A stretch of 64,000 nucleotides of DNA from Prorocentrum cordatum (lineage: Eukaryota > Sar > Dinophyceae > Prorocentrales > Prorocentraceae), in NCBI GenBank assembly GCA_963575745.1, contig CAUYUJ010005747.1:230001-294000 (forward strand), given 5' to 3'. This document shows positions 8,106-54,419 of this stretch, piece after piece; position 1 is the stretch's first letter; each line of letters starts with the position of its first letter. The translations under genes and the position numbers were made by a program. The notes below the pieces were generated by a model. That model worked only from the letters and a program-made list of their open reading frames with translations, was not told the DNA's origin and did not search any database.

Positions 8106-8187
8106 TGAGCGGAGTGGCAGTGATGGGGACGGTACCTTGCGGGCCCCCCCACCATCGGGCGTCGAGAAATGTGTGGTGGAGGGGGGC

Positions 8188-8392: not shown

Positions 8393-8911
8393 GCGCCAGG
8401 GGGCCCCTTCAGGGCACAGAACGTGCACCTTTCCGTCGTACCCACCCTCCCCATGTTCTGGTGATGTGTACTGGGTGGCGCCCCCCCCTCCCCGCCCCCC
8501 CCTCGCCACCCTCCACTGACGGGAACTGCCGTCACCCGAAACACACCATATGCAGGCAGACTTGGTTTTGCAATTCTGGCTAATTTGGAGGGCTTCGTGG
8601 CCCAATCATTAACCAGCTCCCCTTCGTAACCGGGGTCCTCTTGGTTGACCCAAGGGGTCCAGCTGACAAAAGGAGGCGCAATAGATTTGGGGCAATTGCA
8701 TAGCAAATGCACTGCGCCGGAAAAGTGTATTGCATTGTATTTCAACCAATCTGCATTGTCCGCGAACATCCAGCAACACACTTGCGCCTCGGAATGCATT
8801 GCACGATCCACACCTTCTGCAAGTCACAAGAATGCAGCGCGGGAGAGGCCGCAAGAAGCCCTCGCAGGAAACCTAGCACTGAAACTCGCAGGCGGGAGAT
8901 GCAAGTCGGGG
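8393..8911. other. Non-coding interval
   Basis: I see no gene or repeat that I can support here. Confidence 0.35.
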
Positions 8912-18324: not shown

Positions 18325-18894
18325 CTCCAGGCCAAAACCAAAGGCGACATGCCCTGGGCGAGTGAGCGGGGCAGAGCAGGGCCAACCCTGAACGCTTTCG
18401 GTTCTGCCGAAGAATGCTCAGAGCATCTCCGATACGTATTCATACTGAGAACGGACCAGCCCCGCGATGTAAACGCGGGAAGCGCCAAAGGAGGACGACA
18501 AGGGCGTGCGATTAAGCAAGCCAAGCTGGAGTCCTGAACGGCCTGCCCACTCATGGCAGAAAGACTGGCTCAAGTACGCATGTTGACGATTCCTCACGTT
18601 GGCCATGGGAACGACATTGGGGGGGGGGCACTCCGAATCACTCGAACGGGCTCGTCTGGGCCAGTCTCGGCCCCGGCCAACGCCACATCATCATGGCAGA
18701 ATGGTAGCCCGTAAGAGACACAGTTGCACGTTGCCTACTGTGTGAGGCTGTCTCAAGCGAAACGACTCAGCGGCCACGCGGTGGGTAATGCCGTTGTTGG
18801 AAACACCAGGTGCTATTATGTGCGTTGGTGTGAGCATATACAAACGGTCATGCACATCCTCCGCGCGCGCCGCATAGCGCCTACAGTTGTACGC
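18325..18894. other. Non-coding interval
   Basis: 5' flank of the minus-strand gene. I found no full spliced-leader copy; the words CAGGCCAAAACC here are only weakly similar. A G9 run lies at about 18620. Confidence 0.35.
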
Positions 18895-23034: not shown

Positions 23035-23353
<319 letters not shown>

Positions 23354-23488
23354 GTCTCGGCTCGAGAGTGCCCTGCACTCAGACCGCAGCCGCGACGCGA
23401 AGCGCCCCGCCTCGGAGTCAGACTCCCAGGGGTCCCAGCAGGGCCCTACTGATTCGCGTCACCTCTCCTCACCAGAGCGCCCGCAGCA

Positions 23489-26221
23489 ATGGCCCCCAAG
23501 AAGCCGGAGCGCCGTCGCTCTTCTAAGCAGCCTCCGAGTTCCCGTCCTGCTGCTGAAGGGTCTCTCCTCCAACGCAAGCAGGACTGCATCGCAGCGTTCA
23601 AGCAAGCGGGGTCTGACCGCCCCACGGCCGCATGCAACGGGCTTGCCGAACTGAACGCGGACGAGCTCCAGGCAACGTACGACATGCACAAGTCCAACAC
23701 GAAGAAGCTTGGCAGCGCCCTGATACGCATGTGCGCCGCCAACTAGATCAGCTACACGCTTGATCATCACCAGCGCAGCAAGCCCAAGCGCATTGGCGGT
23801 GACACATCACACCCACCAGCGGGTTCCGCACGTCTTCAGGCTGCGGACACCCAATTCATCGCCTTGGACCCGGCCTTTTGGAAGGTCCCTGTCCTCGCCG
23901 AACCCACATCACCTGACGACGGCAAGACGTACAAGCCCAGTATCAGCCTCCACGACTACGAGAGCGGTGAACGGCTGCTGCAACACCACCTCGAGCAGGG
24001 CAAGCGAGCCACGGGTCAGCTCGCGATTGCTGTCATGGGCCCAAAAAACGACAACTACGTCGGTACCGAGCTCGCCGTCCCCGTCCTGAAGCGTCACCCC
24101 AAGGCGCCCAAAGTGGTCCACACGCACGTCCCCGTGACCGTGTACCAGCTGGGCACCAAGGAGGTCGCCTGCACGGAAAAAGTAGCCGTCGCCACCATCG
24201 ACCCTGCCGACCACGTATGCTGGATTCGGGCGACCATACATGAAACCGAGGCCATTGCCGCAGTCCCCTCCATGCATCAGGCCTTCGAGGACCAGTTCTC
24301 GGGAGGTGCCCCCGTGAACGGTGGTCCACGCGCCAAGGGCCCTTTTCGAGGGGACTCCGCTCCACAGGACAAGGCGCGCCAAAACCAAAAGCACAGGGAG
24401 TCCAAGAAAGACGCTCGCCGCCAGGAGCTCGATAGTCAGCTTCAGGACACCTTCAAGGCCCTCTTCCACGGCAACTTTAAAGCCGTCACCATCCTCGAAC
24501 CCTGCAAAAGCCTAGGCAGGTTTGGATCGGGCGTCGGAAAGAGGTCCCTGGCTGCCACCTTCGGCGTCAGTCTCCAAGCGGTCGACAAGGTCCTGGCGGG
24601 ATCAGGGCAACTCGGTGCCACCTACGACCTCAGCAACGTAGGTGCAGACGAGCCCACCGCCGACAAGTATCAGACCGTGTGGTTCCCTGAGGACCAGCCC
24701 ATCACGATGGCAGACGCGTTCCAGAAGTCGGTGGAGTTCAAGGCCCTGGGAGTCGTCAGGCACGGCAAGTCAGGCCTACTGGGGATCCGTGTTCCACGGG
24801 GGTCAGACGCCGCCAAGGCTGCTGCCGTCAGCATCCGTGGCTGCGAGGCTACCCTCGCCAAGACGCGCTACCGCATCACTGGCATTGCGGCACGCCACGC
24901 CACGCTGACCCAGCTCGCCAAGACCCTCACGGGCCCGTCCGTTAAATGGGACTGTGAGGTCTACCACACCGCCTGGGACCCAGCCACTGCGGCCCAGTTT
25001 GCCTTAGTGCGCGCCCATCGGCCCCCACTCACCTATACGGTACAGGTCGCGGGGTGCCCCATCCCGTGGAGCATCACCGAGGCCCCGCTGGCTGAGGTGG
25101 TGCCGAAGCGGGACAACGTTACCATCGTCACGCCTACCACCATCACAGAGCCTGTGACGCCGCCAGCCCGTGGTGGCGGCTTTAGCCCCGCCACCGGCAC
25201 ACTCCTCACCAAAGCGGCCCAGAGCCCCTACCTCCACGACCTCATGACTGCCACGCCCAAAGGCAAGGGCGTCGCACCGCTCCTGATCCCCAAGGAGGAG
25301 CCTTCAGCCAAGCGCCACCGATCCTCCAGCGGGAAACGTGACGCCACGCCGCACGCAAGGTCACCCTGCGCCCCAGGCCGCAGCTCCTCTGCACCCCCGC
25401 ACGGCACGGACGGAGCCGCTGAACCGACGGCCGCCCCAGGATCAGGTGGCCATGACTCTCGGCTTGGCACGGTGGCGGCAGAAGGTGGGGGCCACACCGA
25501 AGGCGACGCTGCCACAGCCGCCGAAGTACCAGGCGACGCCGACGACGTCGAGATCCTCTCATCAGGTGATGAATACAGCGTGGCCTCCCACGAACTCAAC
25601 ACCTTCGGCGAGCGCTTCGCATCGGCCTCTAAACCGCCAGATGCTGCCACGACCCGCATCCAGCACATGGAACAGCAGCACGAGCTGCTAGCCAACACGG
25701 TGGATAACATGCAGGTACAGCTTGCGGGCGTTCTCTCCTCCCAGGCCACACTCACGGAGCACGTCTCAGGGTTGGAACGGGGGCTTGCCACCGTTGTCAC
25801 CCAGCAACAGACGGCAACCGCCGACGCCGCTGCACTGCGCGGCGACATCCAGACCCTCCTCGGGCACCTCACGGGAGGCACCATCCACCTGCCACAAGTG
25901 GCCACTCTGGAAACTAAGAAGGAGGAAGCTGCAGCGGCCGCCGAACCCGTGGCTGCCTGCGGTGGATCGACCAGCCAGGCCAGGTCACCCCAGGGACGGG
26001 GCCCCCAGGGGCTGACAAAGGCAAGGACAAGGGTCGGGCCACCCAGGAACCCTATTGAAGGTGCCTCAGAGAGCCCGCCTCAGCCCTCCGAGGAAGCGCC
26101 TTCAGAGGCATCTCTTCCCTCTTCGCGTCGTATCTCTTTCTTGTCACCTCATGTCTGTTTTGGCAGCAGCACGCGCAAGCTATCTGGTGTAGGGACACCC
26201 GTAGTCTTGCAGGGGGCGTGA
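23489..26221 (+). CDS. ORF1: basic, coiled-coil protein of the retrotransposon, one in-frame TAG
   Basis: Starts at ATG 23489 (MAPKKPERRRSSKQ, strongly basic). After 85 codons an in-frame TAG (23744-23746) interrupts it, but the same frame continues as protein-like sequence (ISYTLDHHQRSKPKRIGG...) to TGA at 26219-26221; the two parts together make about 910 residues. The next ATG after the stop is at 23864. The middle (about 24400-25140) looks globular, with LGVVRHGKSGLLGIRVP. A Pro/Ser/Ala-rich stretch follows, then a clear coiled coil (HMEQQHELLANTVDNMQVQL... to ...DIQTLLGHL, about 25665-25875). A basic start plus a coiled coil fits an ORF1-type RNA-binding protein that coats element RNA; that role is inferred from position and composition. 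No zinc knuckle is seen. Confidence 0.7.
23744..23746 (+). other. In-frame TAG within ORF1
   Basis: TAG followed by ATCAGC. Flanking reading is IRMCAAN*ISYTLDHHQ, protein-like on both sides in the same frame. It may be a nonsense mutation or a readthrough codon; the bases after it do not match the CARYYA context typical of viral readthrough, which favours mutation. Confidence 0.7.
23825..23847 (+). other. Bulged-C hairpin 1
   Basis: Arms TCCGCA / TGCGGA (6 pairs); unpaired C at 23831; core GTC-TTCA-GGC. It lies just upstream of the main ORF1 body. Confidence 0.6.
25168..25197 (+). other. Bulged-C hairpin 2
   Basis: Arms GTGGTGG / CCGCCAC (7 pairs, one G-T), extended by CC/GG past one bulged C; unpaired C at 25177; core GGC-TTTA-GCC. 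Located between the globular part and the coiled coil of ORF1; translated GGFSP. Confidence 0.65.
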
Positions 26222-26229
26222 TTGTTGCA

Positions 26230-29200
26230 ATGTACATGAGCATTCAGGGGTATTTGAGGACGTGTGCTGACATGCAGCTTTCGGCTCATCGCTCGCGCCG
26301 CCCGCCAGGCCTCGCCATCATGTGGCGCATTGCCTGCAGCCTGGCCCTCCCCTCGCTTGCTGGAGCACGCCCGTCTTCAGGCGGTGCGCCCCAGCATGGA
26401 GGAGAGGTTTTCCTGCGACACGCTGAACGTGGGACGCTCTTCTACCTTTACGATGACAGCATCTACAAGTACGATCACCGCACCATTTTGGACCCGATCG
26501 TGAACAGCACCGCCGCCGTGGGTCCGTGCGGCAACGGACCGCTGGGCGCCATCGCGAGCGCCTGGCTTGAGCAGCACCAGGGGCCCTGCCCCACGCGCTG
26601 CCCCCCTGGGACTCCGACGGCCACTACGACGGCTACGGCGAGTACCAGCATGCCTCCTACGAGCACGCCCTCGTCAACTACGACACATGCATCGCAGTCC
26701 ACCCTCAGCGTGGCCTCGACCGTCGCGCAGCACATCCTCGACGGGGCCGCTGACAAAGCCCAGGCACGCAGTGGCGGCTTCAGCCCCGCTGTCGTGCCCC
26801 GCTTTAGCCCCACGGGTCTCACTGCCCCTCTGCGCGCCAGGGGCGAACCCGAGGAGGACCCCGCTTTCTGGCACCTGATGATGATCCGAGCACGGCTCAT
26901 ACCGTGCGCCGCGGCGTGGGCACCAGGTGAGGACCACCAGGACGTGTTCTGGGCATGGCTTGAGGACTGCGTCCCGTGCATCCTGGCGACGCTCCATCTG
27001 CCACAGTACGACCACTTTCTCCAGGAGGACTCCGAGGAGAAAAACGACGCCCTGCGCCAGCGCACCGCGATCGACATGTGCGAGGACATCTGGCACAGAG
27101 CAGGCCCTGACAGACAGCGCACCAACCGCAACCTCACTCGTACCCAGGGCAGCCGCGAGTACCCCACCCGCTACTTTGGCCTCCTTCTGGAATACCAGGG
27201 CGCTCGTGCTCAGCTCTTCGGCCCTGAGGCTTTCACGGCACCATTGCCGCCATACCTCTCACGGGCCCACGCCTTGCTGCCAAGAAGCCTCCCTCCACCC
27301 GACCAAGACGCCCTGGCGTACCTCGCGGATGCGATCCTGCACCACCCGCCAGACATGCAGCCGCTTGTCGAGGCGGAGCTCGCCGCGGCACCGATGGAAC
27401 CGCTAAACCTACCACCGCCAGCTGGCCCCCTCGCCCAGCACGCCACGTGTGACCAGCCCGCGGCCGACGCCGAACCGCTTCTGCTCCAGCACATCGCGGC
27501 CAGTGATATCAGCAACATATCCCTGGACTCGTTCCACGCGTCGGACGATAGCCAGGACGACATGGAAACCCAGGATCGCAACGGCACGGCACCGCCAGGT
27601 GACACGGCCCAGCGTGACCGTGATAGCGAACCCTACATAGGGCGCCCCCCGTCGCACAGCAGTCCGCCTAACAACTCTGCCCAGGCCGACCCCAGCGCAC
27701 AGTTCAACGACGCTGAAGGCGCCACTGCCGCCGACGAGACAAGCCATCCCACTGCATCGCCAGCTCTAACCAACCCGCGCAGTGGCGGCTTCAGCCCCGC
27801 TGCAGCATTGGCTGGACCTGGACGCCTACAGACCGCAGGTGGCAGAACCACGCCACGCACCCTTGTCTGCCGTGCTAACGCGACTGACTCCAATCCCAGC
27901 GCCGTTGACCACTGGCAGGCTGACATCGACAACGACCCCATCGACGACGCGAGCCCAGACGCCAGCGGCTCCTACGAGGCCCCGCACAGCGCAGCGGCCT
28001 CACGACACTGTGGCTGTCTCATTTGCCTCTTCGTGGCCACGTATGCCATCGTGATAGCCATGCCGTACAAGGACCAGATCGACGGGTACTTGCCGACACC
28101 GAGCCGAGACCCCAGCTACCGGCAGCGACGACGACGTGAAGCGGCGGCACCAGGCCCATCTGTGTCCATTACACCCCGACGCACAACGGCATACAACGTC
28201 ACGCCCGCCTTGTGGGGTATTCTCAAGTGGACCAGCGCCAAACTCAGAGATATCGTCTCGGGCGGAGCCAGCGCAGTCGGGTTTGGCCTCGGGGGTGTCC
28301 TGAAATGGGCCAGTGGCAAACTCGGAGCTATTGCCACTGGCGGAGTGGTGTGCGGTCTTCTTCTGGTCGGCGCCAAACTCCTCGCTCAAGGAGCCGTCGG
28401 ACACGTAGGAGCCCGCATCTGTGCGCGCGCCCTGGACTCATCCACGGCCCAGTGGTGCCTCCGCTGTTGCCAACCGAGCAGGAGGCCGCGTGATGAGGCC
28501 ACATACACAATGCCGCGCACGCTTCCCGACGAACCCGAGAGCCAGCACGTGCACGCACTTCGACATCCGCTGCTACAGGAACACTACGCTGCTGCAGTTG
28601 CCGCCGCAGTCGCCGATGTCACCACCGCCACCACCGCCGCCATTGTCGAAGTCACTGCCGCGGTATCGCGAGCCTCGTCTGTCACACCACGATCGACCAG
28701 CCCGTCCCCGCGAGACGGCCCCATAAGCGGCGCGGCTTATGGTAACCCACCGACTCACGAAGACGCCACAGCCCAGGCCAGCGACGCCGAGGCAAGGGAA
28801 ACACGTGAGCGCACCCTCGACAGCCCGTGGTCCATCTTCCGACATGCAGATGCTCGTGGTTCCTCTTCCGACATGGACACCCAACCACCACGACGGCGAG
28901 CACGCTACGCATCACCCGCCAGGCCCCAGGCGCCTCCAGGCCCTGGTATGCCCCACCCAGCCCTCAGGCCACCGACGCGCAACTTACGCAACACCATCCA
29001 GCGCGACCCAGCGGTCCCCGTGCCGCCGACGAGCATCCACACCGCCCTGTACCAAAACGGCTTTGCGCTTGGTAACAGTGGCGTGTCTACAGAGGACATC
29101 AAAGACGCTCTGCGACTCCACGACCATCCTCGATTCACCCATGATCCAACACTCCAAGCGCTGGTGCCGTGGACTGACATCATGCAGAGGCCCCCGAACC

Positions 29201-30585
29201 GCCTCACTTGGGTGCTGGAAGACTCGGGCGGGAACTCAGGCGAGACGATCTTCCCCTACCTCACGTGGGACCTCCGTCAACCCACCACCGACACGCCCAC
29301 GGTCTTCTGGCACGGGACCCGCGGCGACCTTGCGGCCCGTCTCGCTTTCAACGGAGGGCACCTCCTGCCAGGCCCCCGCCGTGAAGCGAAGGGTCGAACT
29401 GCCACAAATGTTGGCCGCACGTACGTGAGTGTGCACCCGTCGCTGGCCGCGTGGTACGCAGTGCCGCCCCACCCGCCCTACAGCCTCGAAGACGACACCC
29501 TCGCGTGGGGACCCATCGCGCTCTGGATGTGCGAGGCCACCCAACCGCCGCGCGGTGAGAACTGGCACAACTTCGTGAAAGGGGAGGCCCATGGAGCGCG
29601 CCTCATCTACCCTCGGGTCCTGGGCCTCCTCATCCGCATGGACTGGTGTGCCCCCACGGAAGCTGCCTCCAGGTGCCGTGCCCTACCACAAGCCTATGGC
29701 ATGGGCGACTGTGCGCACGCCCTCCACATCGCTGGCTACGATCATCCAGATCTCCGTGAGGCGGCTGAAGCCCACGACCAGGAAGCTAGCACCCGGCGCA
29801 GGCTGGACATCGCGGCAGCGTGGCCACCGCCGCAGGCACTATACTCGCCAGAGGCAGCGCGAGCATGGGCCAAACAGCACTACGACACTGAAGCCGCCAC
29901 CAGGGCCGACCCCAACCAGCCCCGTCCACGCGTCTCGCTTCGCAAGCTCCAGCTGGACCCGCAGCCACTGATCGACCTGGTGTACACTGGCTTGCAAGCC
30001 GCCCCGTGCGGGGGCAGTCCGACGCACGTGAGTCGCGCCCCAGCGGCTCCAGCCCTGGGGCCGCGTCTGGCCCACCGCGCACCTACCAGTCAGGTGCCGC
30101 CCTGGCACACAGTCCAGACCGCTCATCGACGACATCAGGAGCCGACGACCGCCGTACGCCGTCCCTCATCAGCGCGGCCGCCGCCCTCGCCCGAGGCCAT
30201 GCCCGCCCACGGCGATCCGCCTCCCGTTCGTCACGGCAGAGCGGCGGAAACTCCACCTCGGACAACAGCGACATCGAGACGTGGGAGCACATCGAGACGG
30301 AAGAGGAGCCGACCGCCTACCACGTCCTCGCCTTCCACGTCCGCGATGTGCGGGCCCGTGTCAATGCCCCTGGCATCGAGGTCTGGCTTGACCCTGGCGA
30401 TCACCACGACGGCGCCTACTTACCGTGGGGGACGACCGTCATGGGCCATCGCGTTATCGACCCTGCGGTGGCGGGTCGCGACGGCTGGGTCATCCTCCAC
30501 CACGACCATGGCGATACCACTACCAAGCTCTGGGCACCGACCCAAGTCCACGTCAAGGCGGACGACACTTGGCGCACGGTCATGA
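26230..30585 (+). CDS. ORF2: secretion-signal-like start, hydrophobic segments, PARP-like ADP-ribosyltransferase-fold domain
   Basis: Frame -1 relative to ORF1, overlapping its stop. ATG codons lie at 26230 and 26320; the latter starts MWRIACSLALPSLAGARPSS, like a signal peptide. A hydrophobic span CLICLFVATYAIVIAM lies near 28010-28060, and a longer Gly/Ala-rich region (VGFGLGGVLKW...GVVCGLLLVGAKLLAQGAVG) near 28270-28400. At 29302-29640 a segment reads FWHGTRGDLAARLAFNGG, then GRTYVSVHPSLAAWYA and LGLLIRMDW. The HGT, about 37 residues, Y-V-S, A-x-x-Y-A pattern is that of PARP-type ADP-ribosyltransferases (H at 29311, Y at 29422). A third catalytic Glu cannot be placed with confidence. Real coding appears to stop near 30005; the remaining 190 codons are a shadow of ORF3. 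The function is unknown; modification of host or element proteins is speculation. Confidence 0.65.
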   Translation: MYMSIQGYLRTCADMQLSAHRSRRPPGLAIMWRIACSLALPSLAGARPSSGGAPQHGGEVFLRHAERGTLFYLYDDSIYKYDHRTILDPIVNSTAAVGPCGNGPLGAIASAWLEQHQGPCPTRCPPGTPTATTTATASTSMPPTSTPSSTTTHASQSTLSVASTVAQHILDGAADKAQARSGGFSPAVVPRFSPTGLTAPLRARGEPEEDPAFWHLMMIRARLIPCAAAWAPGEDHQDVFWAWLEDCVPCILATLHLPQYDHFLQEDSEEKNDALRQRTAIDMCEDIWHRAGPDRQRTNRNLTRTQGSREYPTRYFGLLLEYQGARAQLFGPEAFTAPLPPYLSRAHALLPRSLPPPDQDALAYLADAILHHPPDMQPLVEAELAAAPMEPLNLPPPAGPLAQHATCDQPAADAEPLLLQHIAASDISNISLDSFHASDDSQDDMETQDRNGTAPPGDTAQRDRDSEPYIGRPPSHSSPPNNSAQADPSAQFNDAEGATAADETSHPTASPALTNPRSGGFSPAAALAGPGRLQTAGGRTTPRTLVCRANATDSNPSAVDHWQADIDNDPIDDASPDASGSYEAPHSAAASRHCGCLICLFVATYAIVIAMPYKDQIDGYLPTPSRDPSYRQRRRREAAAPGPSVSITPRRTTAYNVTPALWGILKWTSAKLRDIVSGGASAVGFGLGGVLKWASGKLGAIATGGVVCGLLLVGAKLLAQGAVGHVGARICARALDSSTAQWCLRCCQPSRRPRDEATYTMPRTLPDEPESQHVHALRHPLLQEHYAAAVAAAVADVTTATTAAIVEVTAAVSRASSVTPRSTSPSPRDGPISGAAYGNPPTHEDATAQASDAEARETRERTLDSPWSIFRHADARGSSSDMDTQPPRRRARYASPARPQAPPGPGMPHPALRPPTRNLRNTIQRDPAVPVPPTSIHTALYQNGFALGNSGVSTEDIKDALRLHDHPRFTHDPTLQALVPWTDIMQRPPNRLTWVLEDSGGNSGETIFPYLTWDLRQPTTDTPTVFWHGTRGDLAARLAFNGGHLLPGPRREAKGRTATNVGRTYVSVHPSLAAWYAVPPHPPYSLEDDTLAWGPIALWMCEATQPPRGENWHNFVKGEAHGARLIYPRVLGLLIRMDWCAPTEAASRCRALPQAYGMGDCAHALHIAGYDHPDLREAAEAHDQEASTRRRLDIAAAWPPPQALYSPEAARAWAKQHYDTEAATRADPNQPRPRVSLRKLQLDPQPLIDLVYTGLQAAPCGGSPTHVSRAPAAPALGPRLAHRAPTSQVPPWHTVQTAHRRHQEPTTAVRRPSSARPPPSPEAMPAHGDPPPVRHGRAAETPPRTTATSRRGSTSRRKRSRPPTTSSPSTSAMCGPVSMPLASRSGLTLAITTTAPTYRGGRPSWAIALSTLRWRVATAGSSSTTTMAIPLPSSGHRPKSTSRRTTLGARS
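26368..26406 (+). other. Bulged-C hairpin 3, longest arms
   Basis: Core GTC-TTCA-GGC with unpaired C at 26382. Arms of 14 positions (26368-26381 with 26393-26406), 12 of them paired (one G-T); the two mismatches are both A/C, as left by single transitions. Confidence 0.65.
26763..26798 (+). other. Bulged-C hairpin 4
   Basis: Arms CAGTGG / CCGCTG, then GGCACG / CGTGCC beyond a single extra T: 12 pairs, one G-T. Unpaired C at 26775; core GGC-TTCA-GCC; translated GGFSP. Confidence 0.65.
27777..27806 (+). other. Bulged-C hairpin 5
   Basis: Arms GCAGTGG / CCGCTGC (7 pairs, one G-T), two further pairs past a bulged A; unpaired C at 27786; core GGC-TTCA-GCC. Same subfamily as hairpin 4. Confidence 0.65.
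28926..28946 (+). other. Bulged-C hairpin 6
   Basis: Arms CCAGG / CCTGG (5 pairs); unpaired C at 28931; core GCC-TCCA-GGC. It lies upstream of the ADP-ribosyltransferase-like segment. Confidence 0.6.
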
Positions 30586-33500
30586 TCCCAGCGGACATGG
30601 GGCCCCAGTGGATCGAGCGCCATGCTGACGACGCTCGCCTCCCCGCCGAGGTGGTCCGCACTACAGGCCAGTCCTGGTTCGCCGACGTCTGGCCCTTGTG
30701 GGATCGACCCCGACCCCACCCAGACGACCCAGGCACAAACGAGCAAGCGCTCCCGCCCCTACCAGGACGCTGGTCATGCCTACAGTGCCGATTCCAATGC
30801 TGTCAGTACTGTGCGGCCCGCCGCAACACGCAGCTCGGCACCACGGGCCAACCAACGTGCCCAGACTGCTCCCTCAGCGGACTACGTGCACTTATGGACT
30901 GGTCCACGGACTACTCTTGCAACAGCTGGACGTGTGCATACAGCACCGACAACAGGGACTCCGACACATGCTGCCTCTGCAGCAGGTGCCCCCATCCGCC
31001 TAGTCCGCACAGCCTGTTCGACGTCCGTGCCACAGGGATGCCTCCGCACACCCTTGCCCGCCAATGCGGCAACGCGCCAGCCCATCACGACCTCAAGGAA
31101 CCCCCCCGAGCGCCTTCAGGCCCCGGGGGGGAGCCTCCACAACCAGGCCAAGCAGGTTACCAGGGTCAATGGTATCTTCCACCGAGGCCGCGTCGCGTCC
31201 CCAGGCAGGGATTGCCAGACGGCACGAGGCGGCCACCTGGGTTCACAGGAACGGGGATGCCTGAAGACCCGTCCCCCGACCAACCGCTGTGGAGGGAAGG
31301 CTACGTGCTCTTCGGCCCCCACCAGGCCCTCAAGGAGGACTTCACCTTCAACAAAACGGTCCGCCGACCTTACTCCCTAGCCATCACCAACATGCATAGG
31401 GATCGTGTCACAGTCAGGACCGTCTGCGAGTCTATCGCCGAGCGCATCCACACTACCCGCACCCGTTGGCGAGATGTGGTACTGTACTGGGATGCCGAGG
31501 GCGGCCCTGGGCCTCAAGCCCTCGACTATGACATGCGCCTCTGCGACGCCATGGTGAGCCGTGCCACGACCGAAGCCGAGCTGAACCACGACCGCAGCAA
31601 CCGTGGTAGTTTCTGTCTCTATGGACCAGCGCACCAGCGAGCTGTAAACATCACGGTGCTCCCCGAGCCGCAGAACATTGACTACATGGAGCATGTGCGG
31701 CGATACTCACCCGTCGGGGAGACCTACCCAGACCACGCCTTCGAGCGCGTCTATCAGGGCTGGCGGCGGCCCGACGTGCCCACCATCCTCCCCGACACCC
31801 GCCCGCTCTCGAGAGCCGACCAGCAGCGCTACCAACAGCGCCAGCAGCGCATGCAGCAGCGCGACCAACGCGACGCAGGTCAGCCGAGCACGCCACGCAA
31901 CCGCTCCCCCGCGCGCGTCCCGACAGGCGACAGCACGGTGTACGGCGGGGGTGCCGCCTATCACCGTGGCCCCATTGGCGCCAGGCCCGCGGCGGCTGGA
32001 GCAGCCGCCTCCAGCTACGGCCATGCCCCCCACGCCAGGGTGCACCCAGCGGTCATCGGCTACCCGCGTGCACTCGTGCAGGCTCCCCCACGGGCCACCT
32101 CGCCCGTGCCAGGGTCCACGCGTGCCTGGGGCCATTACCCAGGCCGCCATGACAGCACCGCCAGCAACCAGCCCGCAGTGGTAACCCCTGCGGCTTCAGC
32201 CCAGGGGGCTGCACCAAGCCGTGGCAGGACAGGGCGCCCTGAAGGATGGCGCGATGCGAACGTGCGTGCCTGGCAACCGCGCCAACACACGCCCCCGCCA
32301 AACGTGGCCGCAGCGCTGCGCCCTGCCCAGGCAAAACCTGCCCCACCTGAGCGCGAGAGGCAGCCGCTCGTCCCGCTCGTCCTCACGTACACCCAGGCGC
32401 ACCACAGCGCCTCCCCGCGGCACAGCGAGGGAAGTGCCCATCACGTCAGCCCCCGCCCTGACGCTGTCGACCCTGACCAGGCTGCAGCCTCGGCGGCGGG
32501 CGGCACAGGCGGCTCCCGCCAGCCCAGCCCAACACCCTGCGCAGCGCCGATCCGCTCCCCGAGCAGGGCGGACTCTGCGCGCGCTAACGCCCAGGCGACC
32601 TCGCCACGCGACCGCCACACGGGCGGGCGCGTCCCGCGCAGCCGGTCCTGCAGCCGCCACAGCTCGCGCAAGGCCCCTGGGAGCTCCACGAGCTCGCCGC
32701 CCCGCGAGACTCAGGCTGATGGCCAAGCCCCCGAGGTGGTGCCACGCTTCGGTGCCAGCGCCATCGAACCTGGCCAGGTCGACCTCGAGCCGACGCCGTC
32801 CACGGACCAGGAGCTGCCGCCGCCCACCCGCGTTGTCGTCCCCATCGACGAGGCGCCGACCTTCGACCCCTTCAAGAACAAGTACCGCGTCAAGGACCTC
32901 GCGGCGGGCTTCGGCGGCGGCTCACCGCTCTCTCCACAGAGTCGTGGCGGGGCCCCCGCCACTTCAGCCGCTGCCGCGGCAGCGGCGGCCCCGCGTGGAG
33001 TCAGCCCTGTCCGCAACGCGTGCCTCACGGCAGCGGGCATGGACGAGGCTCAGCGCCAGGCCACCGACCGCGCTGCTCGAGCTGTTCCACCCGATGCTGC
33101 TCATCACGGTACTGACGGGGCGGGCGCGCCGCCGCAGGACGGACCAGCGGTGTCGCGTGCGCAGTATATGCGCGCGCGTTGCGCCGCTGCCGCGCCGAGC
33201 TGCCGCCGCTGGTTTGCTTTTGCTCTTGTGTTCGGCAGGACGGATCGAGGAGTCGCCTCCCTCTCCCTCTGCTGCCGTCTCACCTCTCCTCCCCTCGTCC
33301 CCCACGGTACAGGAGTGAGGAGGATTTTTCGAGGCAGTTTTGCTGATGTTTATGAACCCCCCCTGGCGCAGTGTCGACCATGCCTCGCCTATACTTCTGG
33401 CCTGACGGCGGCTTCAGCCCCGTTCAAGCCAATCTGCAGGGACGCCATGAGCTCCTACTGTGGCCAAGCCTTCTACCTGGGTGAGGGCCAGGCTGCCCTC

Positions 33501-36500
33501 CACCGTGCGGGGCGTGCCAACCCCAGCTCCACCGACGGAGACGGGCCAGGTCGCTCCATCCACCTCGTCAGCCTCAACATCACGAGTCTCCCAGCGAACT
33601 GGCCAACCATCACCGCTCTAGGTGTCGACCACAACGCCGCAGTCATAGCACTGCAGGAGACCCGACATGCCAAGCCTACCAGACAAGCCATCGCTACCAA
33701 CGCCGCCAATCCACACCACGGGGGATATCATGCCAGTCTGGGACCTGACCTGGATCTGGCGCGAGCCCAGCGCAAAGCTGCTCACGGCGGCACAGACCAC
33801 ACGGTCGAGGGCAACACAGGCGCCTCGGGAGGGGTCGCCATCCTCTCTAAGGACGCCATCGTCGACTCCACCGTCGACGACACTGCGTCCTGTATCGCCA
33901 CCCTCAAGGCCAAGAAAAGATGGCACGAGGCCTTCCTCCCGCTCTGCACCCAGCACCGCCGCAGGCGGCGACGAAACAACCACGGGCCCGCTGGGATCTA
34001 CATAGCGAGCCTCTACGGGGTCGCTGGAGGAGACAGCACCGATTTGTTTCGGCTTGCTGACTGCGCCGCCGCGAGGGTCGGCTCAGCCCCGTATTTCATT
34101 TGCATGGACGCCAACACGAACATCGACGACAATCCACACCTGCTGCACATGATGCAGCACGGATGGTTTAACGTCGCTGAAGGCACACCAGACCACACCA
34201 TGCACACATATGGCAATATCCCTGACTGGGACCGCGTCACCAAGTGCCCCCGCACTTCGCGCATCGATTACATCATCGCCAACCAAGCGGCGCGATCCCT
34301 TGTCACCGACTTCTGCTATCTGCGTGACTTGCCAGCGAAGTCCCATGTTGGCCTGCAGGTCACGCTCGACCTTAGCCGCCTCGACCATACGGCCCGACGC
34401 CTTCTTGCCCCCACGCCTTACCCTCCTAACGACGGAGCTCATGAGGACCACGAACTTCAGGCTTTAGGGACCCTCATCGCAGGGCGATACCATGACCGCA
34501 TGGAGCAGGCCGACACACGCGGCGATGTGGAACGCATGTTCGCCCTGGCAAACGAGGCCAGCCATGAGTGCCATCTCACCCGGCTGCGCGACCTGCCACC
34601 TCCACCGCCAGACCACCCAAAAAAGAAGCCCCCTACCATGCACGGGCTCACACCCACGTTCGAGGAGCGACCCGCTGTCCCCCGCGCCTTTCCCACCTAC
34701 GGAGCTTCCACGATTCACATGAACCGCCTTCGCAAGCTCCATCGGCAACTTTGTGAGCTTCGCTTCATCGGACAGCACCATCATATCGACTGCCGTGCCA
34801 TCCCGCCGTACCTGGCGCAGCGCATCGACTGCACGTGGACCGCGGCCCGCCTTCTCTGCCACAAGCTGCGCCCCACGGTCCTCCTGGCCTTTCCCGAGGC
34901 CTGGGCCCCCGACGTGCCAGCACCACACGGAGAGCACCTGGACCGTCTGATCCAAAACCTTGACTCAGAGCTGGCGCGACGTGCAAACCGAGTCAAAGCT
35001 GAACGCATCAAGATTTGGGCTGAGGGTGTCCGCGAGCCAAGCGGGCGAAAGGCGGCCATATACGCACGGGCTGCCGACTGCTCGCCCACGGCGTATCTCC
35101 GCACGCCTACCACTCCCGACGATGCACAGCTCCACTGCGACACCACCGCCTTCAACCCTGACCAAGCTTGCACGGACGATAGTGATGCCGACACCGACGC
35201 TGGCGGCTTCAGCCCCAGCGACGGTAGCTCGCTCGACACGGACAACGACGAAGGCCACACTTGTGACCCACCACCTGCCCAGGTTCCCGACGCCCTCCCC
35301 GCCAACGCCATTGTTGCCAATACCAAAGACATGCTTAAGCTCATGGTCGACACCTGGGAGCCCATCTTGGGCAGGTACCGCGCTCGTGCAGGCCATGATG
35401 CCGAAGCTATGCCGACGTGGGCAGACTTCTACCACGAGTACCGACAAGAGCTGCCTACGCCAACACCAGCTGCCCCTTTCCACCTCACCGACGACCAACT
35501 CATCCACTTCATTCGCACCCGTTCACCGCGCCGCGCGGGGGGACTCGACGGCTGGACTACTAAGGAGGTTAAGGAGTTACCCGACGACATCCTTCGCCTC
35601 TTCGCCAGCGTCTTACGTGCTATGCAACGCACTGGCACCATCCCAGAGCCCCTCCTGCACGTGCCAAACCCGTGCCTCCGAAAAGGCCGAGGGGAACTCC
35701 CGACGGACCAACGACTTCTCTCGGTTCTTTCCGTTTGGATGTACGCGTGGGAAGCGCCAGCCTACCGTAGCCTCACGGACTGGCGGAAAGGATGGACCCA
35801 CGCCACGAGCTTCGGCGCTGTTCCCAAAGCCACCATTGGGGATGTCAGCACCTCTCTCGCCCTGCGCATCGAGCACGCCAGGGCTTTACTCCTCCCCTTA
35901 GCTGGAGCTGCCCTTGACCGACAGAAGTGCTTCGACTACCTCATCACGGACATCTGCCTTAACCTTGCGCTGCACGCGGGGTGCCCTCAAGACATCGTTA
36001 CTGTCCGCCGAAATTTCTACAGTCACCACAAACGCTACATCCGCATGAACGGAGCGTACTCTAAGGACTTGGCCAGGACTAACGGTCACCTCCAGGGAAG
36101 CTCGTGGTCCCTGGACGACATCAAGCTGCTCATGTGCGTGTGGACAAAGAGGCAGCATCGATACGTTCCTCGATCACTCAGCACTACCTTTGTTGACGAC
36201 AGCAACTCCACTACCCACACCGCGTCTGAGCTGCAGAAATCTCTGGACGAAACCGCCAAGTTTGATCGATTCTCAGGTCAACGCATTCACCCTGGTAAAG
36301 TGGCAGGGTGGGCGCTCACCGACGAGCTTCATGCCGCCGTTACCCAGCTCACACTGGCGGAGCGCCCCCTACGTGTGGTCGATTCCTTCAAGCTCGTCGG
36401 GAGCTACATCAACGCAGAGGCAGCGCCGGCTCCAGCCGCGCTTAACCTCACGGCCACCGCAGACGCCCGTGTACGGAGGGCGACTATTCGCCTGCCGCGC

Positions 36501-39113
36501 ATTGGCAAGCTCCCATCGCCGATGCTTATAAAGGCGCGGCACGCCCGTTCCCTTGCTGCCAGCGTCTGCACCACGGGCACCGACATTCAAGCACCATCAG
36601 GCCCAGCCAAAACTGCCTACAACCACGCCCTCAAGGCGGCCATTCGCCCCAAGGGGAACAAGTGGGTCGAGTTCTGGACTCTCATGGCCGTGTGCGTCCC
36701 AGGACACGCCCTGGAGATCGACGCCATCACGCAGCGTGAAGCATTCCTGTGCCTGCGGCGACAGGTTAACCGCGACGTTACACTCTGCGGGCTCGCCAGA
36801 GACCTCCAACACCACGTCCAGACCCTGTTTGGTGGAGGACCCGTCGGACGACTCGTCCAGTCGCTCCAGCAGCTCCGATGGACCTGGCCCACATTTGGCA
36901 TCATGTACGACGACTGGGGCTGCCAGATCAGCTGGCTGAATTTACCCCAAAACGCCTTCCTACACATGCTGCGGGCCTCACAACGCAGGGCTTTTCTGCG
37001 GAGGATCAAGCCACGGCGACACGACCTTGGCTACCTTGCCTCTGTCAGACAGGGCCTCGACCTCTTCGCCAGCACGTGGCTCGCCCGAACTAAAGGAGCA
37101 GCCAAATGCACTGCCTGGCAGCTGGCGCTCCTCCTGAACTACCTGTCGGGCGGGGACCACACCCAACAGCGACGATCCCGATCAAACACGTCGGCTGACC
37201 CCAGCCCCATCTGCCGATACTGCGACGAGGAAGAGGAAACTCAGGAGCACACTGTCCGCGACTGCAAGTGCTGGGCCCGAGAAAGACTCCCTCTCACCAC
37301 CCTCATCAGTGACGACCAGTGGGCCCGTCTTCCGCCGCACACAAGACACTGCGGGCTCTTCGACGAAGACCCAGCCCTCCTCGACCTGCAGGCCGACCTC
37401 GCGAGGGACCCGCTGCCACAGCCCATGCCGCGGCCCCCCCCTGAGGGAGATCCTGCGGCTTCAGCCCAGGACACCTACACCACCTACCTTGACCACGACA
37501 CTGGTTGGACATGGGTCTACGCTGCCACGGACGGTGCATGCACCAACCAAGCCATCCCATTGCTAGCACGAGCGGGCTACGGCGTCTACTACGGCATCGA
37601 CCACCGCATGAACTACAGTGCACGCGTTCACGGCCTAACGCAGAACGCCCAGGTTGCGGAGACCCTCGCCATTGTCCACCTTACGGCATGTGCCGAACGG
37701 CCCGTGCACGTTTTCGTGGACAACCAGGCGGTGGTCGATGGGTTCCAAAGCATCATCGACGGACATCCAGCGCCGCAGGGCACGCACGCGGAGCTCTGGG
37801 AAAAGATCCACCGATGTGTTATGGCCAAGCCCAACATGTTTCGCGTCGAAAAAATCGCCAGCCACCTGGGAGACTTGGGCATCGACCTTGGGCTCATCGG
37901 GCCCATTGCGGAGGAGTTCAACCGTCAGGCCGACGCCCTTGCCACAATGGCGGCACGCACTCACAACCTTCCAGACGACATTGTCGAAGCTGCCAAAACA
38001 CGACATCGCCAAGCGACCGTGCTCCATGGGGTCGCTGTCGCTATCTACGAGCGCAGACACCGCGCTCTCCCGCTCCCACACCGCAGGGCTGGGTTTACAG
38101 CTGCGGAACTCAGCACAATGGAACCAAACCCCCTGCTGTCGGACCAGGCACCACCCGCGGCTGGACCATTCATCCCGCAAGACCCGGATGAGCTATGGGC
38201 CGAGGCCCAACGGGCGATGCTCGATGAACAGGAGGACGACCCGGTCGGCTTCGGTGGGGGATTGGACTTCTTGGACGACGGCCCAGCCAACGCCAACCCT
38301 GCCCCGTCGGGCAACTTCTCGACGCCTACCGCGACTCCGCCACCGAGAGCGACATCGCACCCACGTGATGATGTCGCTCACCGTCAAGACGCCGACGATG
38401 ACCTGGTTGATCCCCTCGGACTGAGTGGCAGCATAGACGACGCTCCGCCGACACCCCACGCTGACGACGATGCCGCCCTATCGAGACGCCACCCGACTAC
38501 GCGGCCGACCTCCGAGCCCTCGCACGGCATCATGCTTGGTCCTACCGTGCCACCCACTCCGTCCCCCCACCAGCGCCAGCCCGCGGGGGCGGCTCCAGCC
38601 CCCCCGCAGGGCACCGAGCCAGTCAGGCCGTCGCACCCCGTCCACACTTCCATTGCTGCTGGGCGTGAGGATGCGGTTCTTCCGACCTCACGGGGCGTGT
38701 CCCTAGCGGCTCGAGCCCTGGGGCCGTGTGTTACCATCCAGTCACCTCTCAAGGGTGTCGGCCGTCCGCACACGGAGTGCCGTACTGCGCCAGTCCACCA
38801 CCTGGCCAGGCGCACCGATGACCTCGTCCCTGCCACGAGGCCCGCGGCCGCTGGCACTGAGCAGCCGCCCCTCACCGACCGCGAAACCGAGCTGTCCCAG
38901 GCTATGGCCGCTCTTCAGCAGAGGTGTGCTGCTCTCGCCGCCGACCTTGCCGCTGCTCAAGCCCGTCAAGGCCCTCTGCTCCAGCGCCTCCACCGCGCCG
39001 GGCGTGCCTTCGCCGAGCTGCTTACGCCCTCGCCCGATGGTGCTGCGCCGCCACTCACCATCCAAGCTATGCTGTCATCGCTCCGCGGCGCTCCACCTGG
39101 TGCCCCGCGCTAA
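30006..39113 (+). CDS. ORF3: endonuclease / reverse transcriptase / RNase H polyprotein
   Basis: Open from after TGA at 29889 to TAA at 39111-39113. No ATG occurs before 30441, although protein-like sequence starts at about 30010, so entry by -1 shift from ORF2 is likelier than its own start. Residues counted from 30006: a Cys-rich module (CLQCRFQCCQYC...CPDC...CCLCSRC, about 255-330); a long Pro/Ala/Arg-rich region; an APE-like endonuclease about 1185-1460 (SLNITSL N1191, QETR E1218, DAN D1368/N1370, RIDY D1421, SH H1447); reverse transcriptase about 1850-2160 (ALDRQKCFD D1971, LQGSSWS, FVDD D2064, FSGQRIHPGK, LVGSYI); a zinc-finger-like CRYC...EHTVRDC at about 2400; RNase H about 2505-2650 (D2509, E2552, D2572, D2643); and a C-terminal helix with coiled-coil character. 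All core catalytic residues are present. The variant motifs QGSSWS (usual QGDPLSP) and FVDD (usual YADD) are notable. Confidence 0.9.
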   Translation: MRGQSDARESRPSGSSPGAASGPPRTYQSGAALAHSPDRSSTTSGADDRRTPSLISAAAALARGHARPRRSASRSSRQSGGNSTSDNSDIETWEHIETEEEPTAYHVLAFHVRDVRARVNAPGIEVWLDPGDHHDGAYLPWGTTVMGHRVIDPAVAGRDGWVILHHDHGDTTTKLWAPTQVHVKADDTWRTVMIPADMGPQWIERHADDARLPAEVVRTTGQSWFADVWPLWDRPRPHPDDPGTNEQALPPLPGRWSCLQCRFQCCQYCAARRNTQLGTTGQPTCPDCSLSGLRALMDWSTDYSCNSWTCAYSTDNRDSDTCCLCSRCPHPPSPHSLFDVRATGMPPHTLARQCGNAPAHHDLKEPPRAPSGPGGEPPQPGQAGYQGQWYLPPRPRRVPRQGLPDGTRRPPGFTGTGMPEDPSPDQPLWREGYVLFGPHQALKEDFTFNKTVRRPYSLAITNMHRDRVTVRTVCESIAERIHTTRTRWRDVVLYWDAEGGPGPQALDYDMRLCDAMVSRATTEAELNHDRSNRGSFCLYGPAHQRAVNITVLPEPQNIDYMEHVRRYSPVGETYPDHAFERVYQGWRRPDVPTILPDTRPLSRADQQRYQQRQQRMQQRDQRDAGQPSTPRNRSPARVPTGDSTVYGGGAAYHRGPIGARPAAAGAAASSYGHAPHARVHPAVIGYPRALVQAPPRATSPVPGSTRAWGHYPGRHDSTASNQPAVVTPAASAQGAAPSRGRTGRPEGWRDANVRAWQPRQHTPPPNVAAALRPAQAKPAPPERERQPLVPLVLTYTQAHHSASPRHSEGSAHHVSPRPDAVDPDQAAASAAGGTGGSRQPSPTPCAAPIRSPSRADSARANAQATSPRDRHTGGRVPRSRSCSRHSSRKAPGSSTSSPPRETQADGQAPEVVPRFGASAIEPGQVDLEPTPSTDQELPPPTRVVVPIDEAPTFDPFKNKYRVKDLAAGFGGGSPLSPQSRGGAPATSAAAAAAAAPRGVSPVRNACLTAAGMDEAQRQATDRAARAVPPDAAHHGTDGAGAPPQDGPAVSRAQYMRARCAAAAPSCRRWFAFALVFGRTDRGVASLSLCCRLTSPPLVPHGTGVRRIFRGSFADVYEPPLAQCRPCLAYTSGLTAASAPFKPICRDAMSSYCGQAFYLGEGQAALHRAGRANPSSTDGDGPGRSIHLVSLNITSLPANWPTITALGVDHNAAVIALQETRHAKPTRQAIATNAANPHHGGYHASLGPDLDLARAQRKAAHGGTDHTVEGNTGASGGVAILSKDAIVDSTVDDTASCIATLKAKKRWHEAFLPLCTQHRRRRRRNNHGPAGIYIASLYGVAGGDSTDLFRLADCAAARVGSAPYFICMDANTNIDDNPHLLHMMQHGWFNVAEGTPDHTMHTYGNIPDWDRVTKCPRTSRIDYIIANQAARSLVTDFCYLRDLPAKSHVGLQVTLDLSRLDHTARRLLAPTPYPPNDGAHEDHELQALGTLIAGRYHDRMEQADTRGDVERMFALANEASHECHLTRLRDLPPPPPDHPKKKPPTMHGLTPTFEERPAVPRAFPTYGASTIHMNRLRKLHRQLCELRFIGQHHHIDCRAIPPYLAQRIDCTWTAARLLCHKLRPTVLLAFPEAWAPDVPAPHGEHLDRLIQNLDSELARRANRVKAERIKIWAEGVREPSGRKAAIYARAADCSPTAYLRTPTTPDDAQLHCDTTAFNPDQACTDDSDADTDAGGFSPSDGSSLDTDNDEGHTCDPPPAQVPDALPANAIVANTKDMLKLMVDTWEPILGRYRARAGHDAEAMPTWADFYHEYRQELPTPTPAAPFHLTDDQLIHFIRTRSPRRAGGLDGWTTKEVKELPDDILRLFASVLRAMQRTGTIPEPLLHVPNPCLRKGRGELPTDQRLLSVLSVWMYAWEAPAYRSLTDWRKGWTHATSFGAVPKATIGDVSTSLALRIEHARALLLPLAGAALDRQKCFDYLITDICLNLALHAGCPQDIVTVRRNFYSHHKRYIRMNGAYSKDLARTNGHLQGSSWSLDDIKLLMCVWTKRQHRYVPRSLSTTFVDDSNSTTHTASELQKSLDETAKFDRFSGQRIHPGKVAGWALTDELHAAVTQLTLAERPLRVVDSFKLVGSYINAEAAPAPAALNLTATADARVRRATIRLPRIGKLPSPMLIKARHARSLAASVCTTGTDIQAPSGPAKTAYNHALKAAIRPKGNKWVEFWTLMAVCVPGHALEIDAITQREAFLCLRRQVNRDVTLCGLARDLQHHVQTLFGGGPVGRLVQSLQQLRWTWPTFGIMYDDWGCQISWLNLPQNAFLHMLRASQRRAFLRRIKPRRHDLGYLASVRQGLDLFASTWLARTKGAAKCTAWQLALLLNYLSGGDHTQQRRSRSNTSADPSPICRYCDEEEETQEHTVRDCKCWARERLPLTTLISDDQWARLPPHTRHCGLFDEDPALLDLQADLARDPLPQPMPRPPPEGDPAASAQDTYTTYLDHDTGWTWVYAATDGACTNQAIPLLARAGYGVYYGIDHRMNYSARVHGLTQNAQVAETLAIVHLTACAERPVHVFVDNQAVVDGFQSIIDGHPAPQGTHAELWEKIHRCVMAKPNMFRVEKIASHLGDLGIDLGLIGPIAEEFNRQADALATMAARTHNLPDDIVEAAKTRHRQATVLHGVAVAIYERRHRALPLPHRRAGFTAAELSTMEPNPLLSDQAPPAAGPFIPQDPDELWAEAQRAMLDEQEDDPVGFGGGLDFLDDGPANANPAPSGNFSTPTATPPPRATSHPRDDVAHRQDADDDLVDPLGLSGSIDDAPPTPHADDDAALSRRHPTTRPTSEPSHGIMLGPTVPPTPSPHQRQPAGAAPAPPQGTEPVRPSHPVHTSIAAGREDAVLPTSRGVSLAARALGPCVTIQSPLKGVGRPHTECRTAPVHHLARRTDDLVPATRPAAAGTEQPPLTDRETELSQAMAALQQRCAALAADLAAAQARQGPLLQRLHRAGRAFAELLTPSPDGAAPPLTIQAMLSSLRGAPPGAPR
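30034..30065 (+). other. Bulged-C hairpin 7, at the ORF2/ORF3 frame junction
   Basis: Arms GCCCCAG / CTGGGGC (7 pairs), extended by CGC/GCG past one bulged C; unpaired C at 30044; core GGC-TCCA-GCC. It begins about 20 bases after the G5 run (30010-30014) where reading leaves ORF2. Confidence 0.65.
31101..31131 (+). other. Bulged-C hairpin 8
   Basis: Seven C-G pairs plus G-C, one A/C mismatch and G-C; unpaired C at 31111; core GCC-TTCA-GGC. AGG (31096-31098) and CCT (31134-31136) can extend it. Confidence 0.6.
32185..32207 (+). other. Bulged-C hairpin 9
   Basis: Arms CCCCTG / CAGGGG (6 perfect pairs); unpaired C at 32191; core GGC-TTCA-GCC; translated AASA. Confidence 0.65.
33404..33424 (+). 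other. Bulged-C hairpin 10
   Basis: Arms GACGG / CCGTT (5 pairs, one G-T); unpaired C at 33409; core GGC-TTCA-GCC. It lies just before the endonuclease domain. Confidence 0.6.
35193..35225 (+). other. Bulged-C hairpin 11
   Basis: Arms CGCTGG / CCAGCG, then ACCG / CGGT beyond a single A/A mismatch (10 pairs); unpaired C at 35204; core GGC-TTCA-GCC. It lies between the endonuclease and reverse transcriptase domains. Confidence 0.7.
36422..36442 (+). other. Bulged-C hairpin 12
   Basis: Arms AGCGC / GCGCT (5 perfect pairs); unpaired C at 36427; core GGC-TCCA-GCC. It follows the LVGSYI motif at the end of the reverse transcriptase core. Confidence 0.6.
37451..37471 (+). other. Bulged-C hairpin 13
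   Basis: Arms TCCTG / CAGGA (5 perfect pairs); unpaired C at 37456; core GGC-TTCA-GCC. It lies just before RNase H; same subfamily as hairpin 9 but with a paired T-A where hairpin 9 has C-G. Confidence 0.65.
38580..38610 (+). other. Bulged-C hairpin 14
   Basis: Arms GCGGGGG / CCCCCGC (7 pairs), one C/A mismatch, then CC/GG; unpaired C at 38590; core GGC-TCCA-GCC. In the Pro/Ala-rich tail after RNase H. Confidence 0.6.
38701..38723 (+). other. Bulged-C hairpin 15
   Basis: Arms CCCTAG / CTGGGG (6 pairs, one G-T); unpaired C at 38707; core GGC-TCGA-GCC. The outer sequence (CTGGGGCCG) is shared with hairpin 7. Confidence 0.6.
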
Positions 39114-39477
39114 TTTCCTCCTTCCTGCCTGCCCGTGTGTACGCGTGGCTCCGCGTCCACGGTGTCAGGGCGTGGGGGCGGGGGGTGCCCCGTCCCTGCG
39201 CGCCGCTTTGCGGCCAAGCGCCCAACTGGCGGTCTGCCAAGCCGCCTAGCCACGTGTCAGCACGTCGCCTTCCTTGTTGGGGCCTCTTTCTTCACGCGGT
39301 CTGACATGTGAGATCTTCACCGTCTGTCCGCCGTCTGTAGCGTCTGTCGCATTGCGCCGGGGGAGGGGGTTTTGTTGCCCGCCCTCGTATCTTAAGGCTG
39401 CACCGCCGCAAATAGTGTTTGGCGAGTTGTCGCACCGCAGTGCGCCTCGCGGACGGACCCTGGTCCGCCTACTTGTC
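39114..39477 (+). other. 3' untranslated region of the retrotransposon with terminal stem-loop
   Basis: From the ORF3 stop to the (TC)n tract. Near its end GCGGAC (39449-39454) and GTCCGC (39463-39468) form a 6-bp stem with an 8-base loop, 10 bases before the (TC)n. A terminal stem-loop is the kind of feature LINE reverse transcriptases use to select their RNA; that function is inferred. GTCTGTCCGCCGTCTGTAGCG-type words repeat around 39320-39350. Confidence 0.5.
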
Positions 39478-39634
<157 letters not shown>

Positions 39635-53790: not shown

Positions 53791-54415
<625 letters not shown>

Positions 54416-54419
54416 ATCT

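Follow-up and report, generated by a model that had tools for sequence, protein, structure and literature searches.

Conserved bulged-C hairpins along the coding strand of a LINE-type retrotransposon of Prorocentrum cordatum: candidate RNA-level signals shared with a non-autonomous repeat

The cis preference of long interspersed nuclear elements (LINEs) is an old question, and most work on it has concerned a hairpin in the 3' tail or has involved no specific site; UnaL2 is a stringent-type LINE with such a 3'-tail stem-loop. In the operator of phage MS2 an ANYA tetraloop sits two pairs above a bulged A, and in the iron-responsive element (IRE) five pairs separate a CAGUGN hexaloop from a bulged C on the 5' side. 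Here we describe an array of bulged hairpins in a LINE-type retrotransposon of Prorocentrum cordatum (Dinophyceae), found in a stretch of 64,000 nucleotides (nt; assembly GCA_963575745.1, contig CAUYUJ010005747.1, positions 230,001 to 294,000 of the forward strand) that we call the window and whose coordinates are used throughout. Published accounts report three related situations: a 3'-tail stem-loop of the zebrafish LINEs ZfL2-1 and ZfL2-2 bound by the part of their own protein that lies between endonuclease and reverse transcriptase (RT) (PMC4176376), 3' ends common to LINEs and short interspersed nuclear elements (PMC6510757), and, in positive-strand RNA phages and viruses, numerous stem-loops that are scattered over the genomic RNA, have a recognition motif in common and are considered to serve packaging (PMC6281560; PMC4751978).

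The array mixes features of the LINE tail with features of phage signals, yet it belongs to neither class. As in stringent LINEs, it is a hairpin of a LINE RNA, shared here with a non-autonomous partner (loci L154, L165 and L166), but the stringent stem-loop sits in the 3' tail, whereas about 15 hairpins lie in the coding region of this element and none was found in 39114-39480. The likeness to MS2-type packaging signals lies in the dispersed stem-loops with a common motif on one RNA (15 sites in 16 kilobases, kb) and in the single-strand bulge below a tetraloop; however, the bulged nucleotide is C, or A in the non-autonomous repeat only, and lies three pairs below UYCA, and the element is a LINE without a recognised capsid protein. 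Pfam scans gave no capsid domain above the cut-off. Degenerate viral packaging signals are also less strictly conserved than these hairpins. With the IRE the element shares a short hairpin with a bulged C on the 5' side, but it has a tetraloop and three pairs, and no Rfam family matches the element at E up to 1; a known RNA family was rejected as an explanation on this ground. The likeness to operator hairpins of phages and to IREs that the initial annotation had pointed out holds for the general geometry and is an analogy only. No hairpin array of this kind in a LINE was found among the listed titles and abstract openings of open-licence PubMed Central papers. We consider it probable, at roughly 60%, that the hairpins act in cis at the RNA level as signals of one LINE family, and that at these dispersed sites the RNA is docked by an RNA-binding protein of the element itself and thereby selected or packed.

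A direct scan recovered 13 plus-strand hairpins of the element with an uninterrupted outer arm of 5-7 pairs, together with one dissimilar match at 60390, and a relaxed scan recovered the sites at 26368 and 31106. At 26368 the arm consists of four pairs, an A.C mismatch and then further pairs; at 31106 an A.C mismatch lies one pair under the bulge, and 6 of 7 positions are paired. All 15 sites share variable arms, a single bulged nucleotide that is C in 15/15 and always lies three pairs from the loop, and a UYCA-type loop (TTCA at nine sites, TCCA at four, TTTA and TCGA at one each). Number, strand and loops agree with the initial annotation; its arms of at least five pairs are uninterrupted at 13 of the 15 sites and interrupted by the mismatch at the other two, and a hairpin that it placed at 35195 is present but starts at 35198. 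From 5' to 3', with scores under a covariance model of the 15 sites (R1), hairpin 1 lies at 23825-23847 (core CGTC-TTCA-GGC; 32.4 bits), hairpin 2 at 25170-25194 (34.0 bits; its loop is TTTA, which is TTTA in one and TTCA in two of three other copies), hairpin 3 at 26365-26389 (core CGTC-TTCA-GGC, one A.C arm mismatch; 30.7 bits), hairpin 4 at 26768-26792 (36.1 bits), hairpin 5 at 27779-27803 (39.7 bits), hairpin 6 at 28926-28946 (core CGCC-TCCA-GGC; 32.3 bits), hairpin 7 at 30037-30061 (39.9 bits), hairpin 8 at 31104-31128 (core CGCC-TTCA-GGC, one A.C arm mismatch; 32.3 bits) and hairpin 9 at 32185-32207 (34.9 bits). They are followed by hairpin 10 at 33404-33424 (33.9 bits), which precedes the endonuclease match by about 200 nt, hairpin 11 at 35198-35220 (37.0 bits) between endonuclease and RT, hairpin 12 at 36422-36442 (31.5 bits), about 110 nt past the RT match, hairpin 13 at 37451-37471 (33.7 bits), with the RNase H match starting about 50 nt further on, hairpin 14 at 38583-38607 (35.4 bits) and hairpin 15 at 38701-38723 (32.8 bits), whose TCGA loop is TCCA in both other copies compared.

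Orientation, geometry and spacing of the array are all restricted. Strict scans of the minus strand of the element gave zero such hairpins, and the relaxed scan gave a single weak match near 36169 with a dissimilar core. Within the element there is no series with two or four pairs between the bulge and a UYCA loop. The intervals average 1063 nt, with 11 of 14 falling within 1000-1350 nt, and their coefficient of variation is 0.36 versus 0.91 for random positions, an evenness reached in 1 per 20000. R1 has no match (E up to 1) in the 3' untranslated region (UTR; 39114-39480), and the 5' leader is likewise without a hairpin. Two other copies of the element have an additional, weaker hairpin with the core CGTC-TTCA-GAC, which follows hairpin 5 at a distance of 37 nt (L157 3486-3516, 20.6 bits; L158 1924-1954, 24.6 bits) and was not detected in the window copy.

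The data support the view that selection acting at the nucleic-acid level maintains the hairpins. Their DNA is translated variously as GGFSP, AASA, APAP or RLQ, and the bulged C occupies codon phase 0 at one site, phase 1 at nine and phase 2 at five (frames were assumed by position, and 26365 and 30037 lie near frame changes). As all three phases are in use, the hairpins are not a peptide motif. Divergence was counted in six loci on four contigs (L154-L159, of which L154/L155 and L156/L157 are neighbouring pieces) that differ from the window by 4-9%. Hairpins account for 11 changes in 626 positions, compared to 1898 in 30443 elsewhere, and fourfold-degenerate sites have changed at 2 of 151 positions inside but at 665 of 5295 outside, which makes silent-site change about nine times lower within hairpins. 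Since these loci overlap and are related, we added random-placement and distinct-site counts: none of 5000 random placements of 15 blocks was as low in fourfold changes as the hairpins, and the distinct fourfold sites changed are 2/84 inside versus 512/2836 outside. Over all 38 loci compared, the distinct hairpin changes number 11; four of them alter the loop within or toward UYCA (TTTA to TTCA, TCGA to TCCA and TCCA to TTCA among them), and three keep a pair by converting G-U to G-C or A-U. An explanation by a GGFSP peptide was rejected on the three codon phases and the conserved silent sites within hairpins. Three protein searches, in other samples, yielded 1, 5 and 1 relatives; these are proteins without DNA, in which a hairpin can be judged only via the encoded GGFSP. 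This peptide is retained at both second-frame sites in the relative P0010, and the hairpin 11 peptide AGGFSP in P0006 and P0009.

The same hairpins occur in a second, otherwise different repeat. On contig C2, a 6.4-kb repeat lies between two copies of the LINE (L154, C2:405001-415000, at about 2095-8576 on the minus strand). It has in common with the LINE its first bases after a (CT)n stretch (18 identical, similar to about 23391) and, at about 87%, the 3' UTR; beyond these ends and the hairpins, blastn and tblastn revealed no similarity to the LINE interior. It represents a family of its own, with 135 matches in the best 40 of 1117 candidates scored. Its open reading frame (ORF) of 986 amino acids has Gag_p24 as sole, non-significant Pfam match (E 0.22), and no RT was found in the repeat by Pfam or in the blastn and tblastn comparison. 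Six hairpins are present in L154, six in L165 and seven in L166 (at 1634, 1763, 2549, 3134, 3887, 5414 and 5527). The L166 sequence ends before the 3' end, leaving its hairpins and 5' part comparable and the 3' UTR only in L154 and L165, both of which carry another hairpin near the 3' end. The arms differ from those of the LINE, and in three L166 hairpins a bulged A replaces the C while the three pairs and the UUCA loop are retained. Seven of these non-autonomous hairpins, which lie outside the training of R1, have 97.1% of their cells paired and a covariation score of 0.610 versus 0.204 when shuffled (reached by 0/500). The related sites 3134 and 3887 differ by a compensatory G-C to A-U change. 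One hairpin pair falls in a 114-nt tandem duplication, the only local repeat. That a different element keeps only ends and hairpins is as expected if the hairpins are needed in trans. Reading frames, silent-site conservation and presence in a non-autonomous element all support nucleic-acid signals that act in cis over a motif of the encoded peptide.

Chance does not account for the array. Against 13 hairpins with uninterrupted arms, 300 dinucleotide shuffles of 23431-39400 contained on average 0.04 and at most one, so that an equal density in shuffled sequence is not seen, and 300 synonymous-codon permutations gave a mean of 0.05 and a maximum of two. The arm covariation described in the initial annotation was borne out as well. 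An arm pairs with its own partner at 6.1 of 7 positions on average versus 3.4 between arms of different sites, and the observed pairing total was reached in 0 of 20000 permutations that swapped right arms among the 15 sites. Their alignment has 90.7% of cells paired versus 62.1% after shuffling, a covariation score of 0.702 versus 0.165, and 36 cells changed on both sides versus 11.6, values that 0/500 shuffles reached in each case; sliding the partner arm abolishes the covariation signal. A tandem or periodic DNA repeat was rejected as a candidate explanation, the alignment holding no common sequence beyond the core and the paired arms. The 15 sites score 30.7-39.9 bits under R1 and the next best match on either strand of the 64 kb scores 18.4; only this gap of 12 bits is informative because the model was trained on these sites. 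The nine exact CGGCTYCAGCC cores of the window are all on the plus strand and all within such hairpins. In its context, the sense strand is predicted to fold into these pairs with a mean probability of 0.86 (60-nt flanks) or 0.83 (150-nt flanks), exceeding 0.5 at 13/15 and 14/15 sites, respectively.

From the sites, their selection and their sharing, we infer a protein, a particle and a role in mobility. Each hairpin would dock one RNA-binding protein, which would read the bulged nucleotide and the UYCA loop three pairs off and tolerate different arm sequences. An element-encoded protein is the simplest candidate because the sites are seen only in the LINE and its non-autonomous partner, and the long upstream ORFs or the stretch between endonuclease and RT would be its most likely source. 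Docking about once per kilobase of sense RNA, many bound copies could select the 16-kb RNA and compact it into a particle for reverse transcription, such coating and compaction preceding target-primed reverse transcription, and non-autonomous RNAs with the same sites may be carried along in trans. Tentatively, and with a little less than an even chance, we propose that the array is a virus-like display of about 15 evenly spaced, protein-specific docking hairpins, kept against the codon table, and that this display licenses packing and mobilisation of both the LINE and the otherwise unrelated non-autonomous repeat.

A number of observations weigh against this interpretation. When any bulge and any loop are allowed, the element has 21 hairpins on its sense and 17 on its antisense strand, and 40 shuffles average 3.45; shuffles therefore understate hairpins generally, which is why the further controls were added, and the excess of this geometry on one strand does not depend on shuffling alone. 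One of five covariation measures, the count of pairs in which both partners have changed (8/10), was matched by 40 of 500 shuffles. Folded alone, hairpins 3, 6, 10, 12 and 15 have z-scores above -2 relative to their own shuffles (the other 10 of 15 are below -2), and for hairpin 3 the target fold is not the optimum. The pair probability falls below 0.5 for hairpins 3 and 13 with 60-nt flanks and for hairpin 15 with 150-nt flanks. G-U pairs (nine) only modestly exceed A.C (five), a weak wobble test of the strand, and the assignment to the RNA strand therefore rests on orientation and folding. Among the distinct changes, one takes a loop out of UYCA (TCCA to TCCG, one copy) and three arm changes disrupt a pair; the one in the hairpin at 35198 is present in 14 copies. 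In a survey anchored next to hairpin 13, 5 of 86 copies had changed in the hairpin (21 nt) versus 5 of 99 in a non-hairpin control (19 nt), each survey starting from 100 rows of which 14 and 1 unrelated matches, respectively, were dropped; the two agree because both sample very young copies, and we did not use this survey as evidence. The relatives P0005 and P0008, of a related subfamily, are without GGFSP in the endonuclease-RT linker, so the site of hairpin 11 is not universal. As to the protein, Pfam scans gave no RNA-binding domain, which leaves the candidate binder a prediction, and structure predictions for two candidate ORF regions (mean predicted local distance difference test scores of 37.6 and 34.5) are too poor for use. 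The sample of other RT loci described next is small, comprising five partly masked loci that may represent fewer than five families.

The alternative that survives best, although we regard it as unlikely, is that the sites serve a cellular RNA-binding protein in export, localisation, stability or translation, or are recognised by host defence. The data name no binder, and conservation as well as sharing with a non-autonomous element would also be expected for a host factor. Speaking against it, the hairpins are missing from 5/5 other RT loci of the genome, in which R1 has no match above 15.9 bits on either strand, and from the remaining 48 kb of the window; a defence target would, moreover, hardly be kept at silent sites. 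These loci were identified with Pfam RVT_1, five of the 150 listed being taken, and about 33.3 of their 50 kb are readable, the remainder being N. Across the genome (4,128,499,153 bases in 21,875 contigs), the core occurs 15054 times compared to 7418 for the reversed control, i.e., twice as frequently, and 76 of 100 listed core places are clustered. Isolated copies of CGGCTTCAGCC elsewhere are without such arms in 5/5 cases (L116-L120, which head the listing and all lie on contig C1). No protein relative was found in IMG/VR; an exact 15-mer matches 115 stretches of viral_contigs, a match that by itself is uninformative about arms.

We think it quite improbable that the array consists of reverse-transcription signals, in which the hairpin, or its mirror in the complementary DNA (cDNA) with a bulged G and a TGRA loop, would cause pausing, strand transfer or priming during module exchange or second-strand completion. 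Fixed orientation and spacing would fit such signals, as would two families that share hairpins and ends while their interiors differ. In L159 a break in homology resumes 14 nt before hairpin 4, and one L165 hairpin lies within a stretch of about 130 nt missing from L154, but the remaining homology breaks lie off the hairpins (few alignments, judged by eye). The mirror hairpin can form in cDNA, although better folding is predicted for the sense strand: on the antisense strand, the probability of these pairs averages 0.56 (60-nt flanks, RNA parameters).

Less credible still is a pacing of translation and folding, by which stable hairpins in linkers would slow ribosomes and let each domain fold. 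Hairpins 10-13 do lie outside the stretches matched by Pfam to endonuclease, RT and RNase H, and the interval resembles the size of a protein domain. With so few sites, however, we estimate this position outside domains not to be significant; stability alone would suffice for pacing and would not require a fixed bulge, a three-pair distance and a UYCA loop, and the sharing with the non-autonomous element is left unexplained. Finally, the notion that the hairpins are remnants of a mobile or duplicating palindrome or a by-product of a conserved GGFSP/AASAP peptide, devoid of RNA function, can be set aside almost entirely, for although a non-autonomous hairpin pair lies in a tandem duplication, GGFSP is conserved in relatives and 9/15 sites share a codon phase, all three phases are used, silent sites are far less changed within hairpins, and the arms differ with both-side changes at 8/10 pairs.

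The body of the element occupies 23353-39480 on the plus strand, as do all features named below, between (CT)n at about 23060-23352 and (TC)n at about 39480-39632; the exact ends are uncertain, and copies elsewhere in the genome align across this body. ORF1 starts at the first ATG past the leader (23489-23746), is broken by a stop at 23744-23746 in the window copy and reopens from 23747 to 26221, whereas the copies L159 and L157 have open frames of 856 and 857 amino acids, respectively. A second long open frame spans 26059-30585 (1508 amino acids stop to stop), of which about 26230-30000 appears by eye to be probably coding; P0010 is 73% identical across 98% of the residues coded by 26740-27852. 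The third open frame, 29892-39113 (3073 amino acids stop to stop), is predicted to encode a polyprotein with endonuclease, RT, zinc finger and RNase H. An APE-type endonuclease domain is matched at 33624-34292 (Pfam Exo_endo_phos, E 2.3e-6), an RT domain at 35859-36311 (RVT_1, E 0.011, under the curated cut-off, with an FVDD motif at 36189 by eye) and an RNase H domain at 37524-37955 (RNase_H, E 2.2e-7), followed by the 3' UTR. Judged by the order of endonuclease, RT and RNase H within one frame, the element is a LINE, i.e., a retrotransposon without long terminal repeats, with RNase H.

RT matches have 99-100% identity throughout the best 82 of 9340 candidates scored in the same genome, and a pattern whose anchor lies some 65 nt ahead of hairpin 13 is found 718 times versus twice for its reversed control. 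The family is therefore young, its copies numbering at least several hundred; the hairpin 13 survey leads to an estimate of roughly a thousand. Genome searches with the RT and P0007 yielded this young family itself and did not reach a more distant autonomous family. On C2, copies stand head to tail across (CT)n/(TC)n stretches, which flank the element on both sides; this bounding suggests microsatellite-targeted insertion or a (TC)n tail. The 5' motif after (CT)n (23353-23391, TAGTCTCGGCTCGAGAGT), common to the element and the non-autonomous repeat, can form a small hairpin.

The window, with a GC content of 60.8%, also contains repeats of other kinds. Divergent units recur every 155-195 nt or so at 18849-20187, with stretches like CGAAAACCCA and AAAACCCAATGTAA. 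Units of about 90 nt form direct and inverted arrays at 54400-56630, and similar ones lie near the element copy in L159. Two separate arrays with a 14-nt period (TGGTGCAATCTACG-like) are found at 1217-1385 and 2809-2956, and a TTTTTTGCAATCCTTCGG-like repeat of roughly 18-nt period lies at 59080-59230.

The array comes with built-in replicates: every element offers about 15 natural variants, one subfamily amounts to about 700 copies, and a second family has retained only hairpins and ends. Hairpin-free RT loci exist in the same genome. RNA recognition by a LINE thereby becomes directly testable. If the proposed docking function is true, the concept of dispersed packaging signals would extend from RNA viruses to LINEs.

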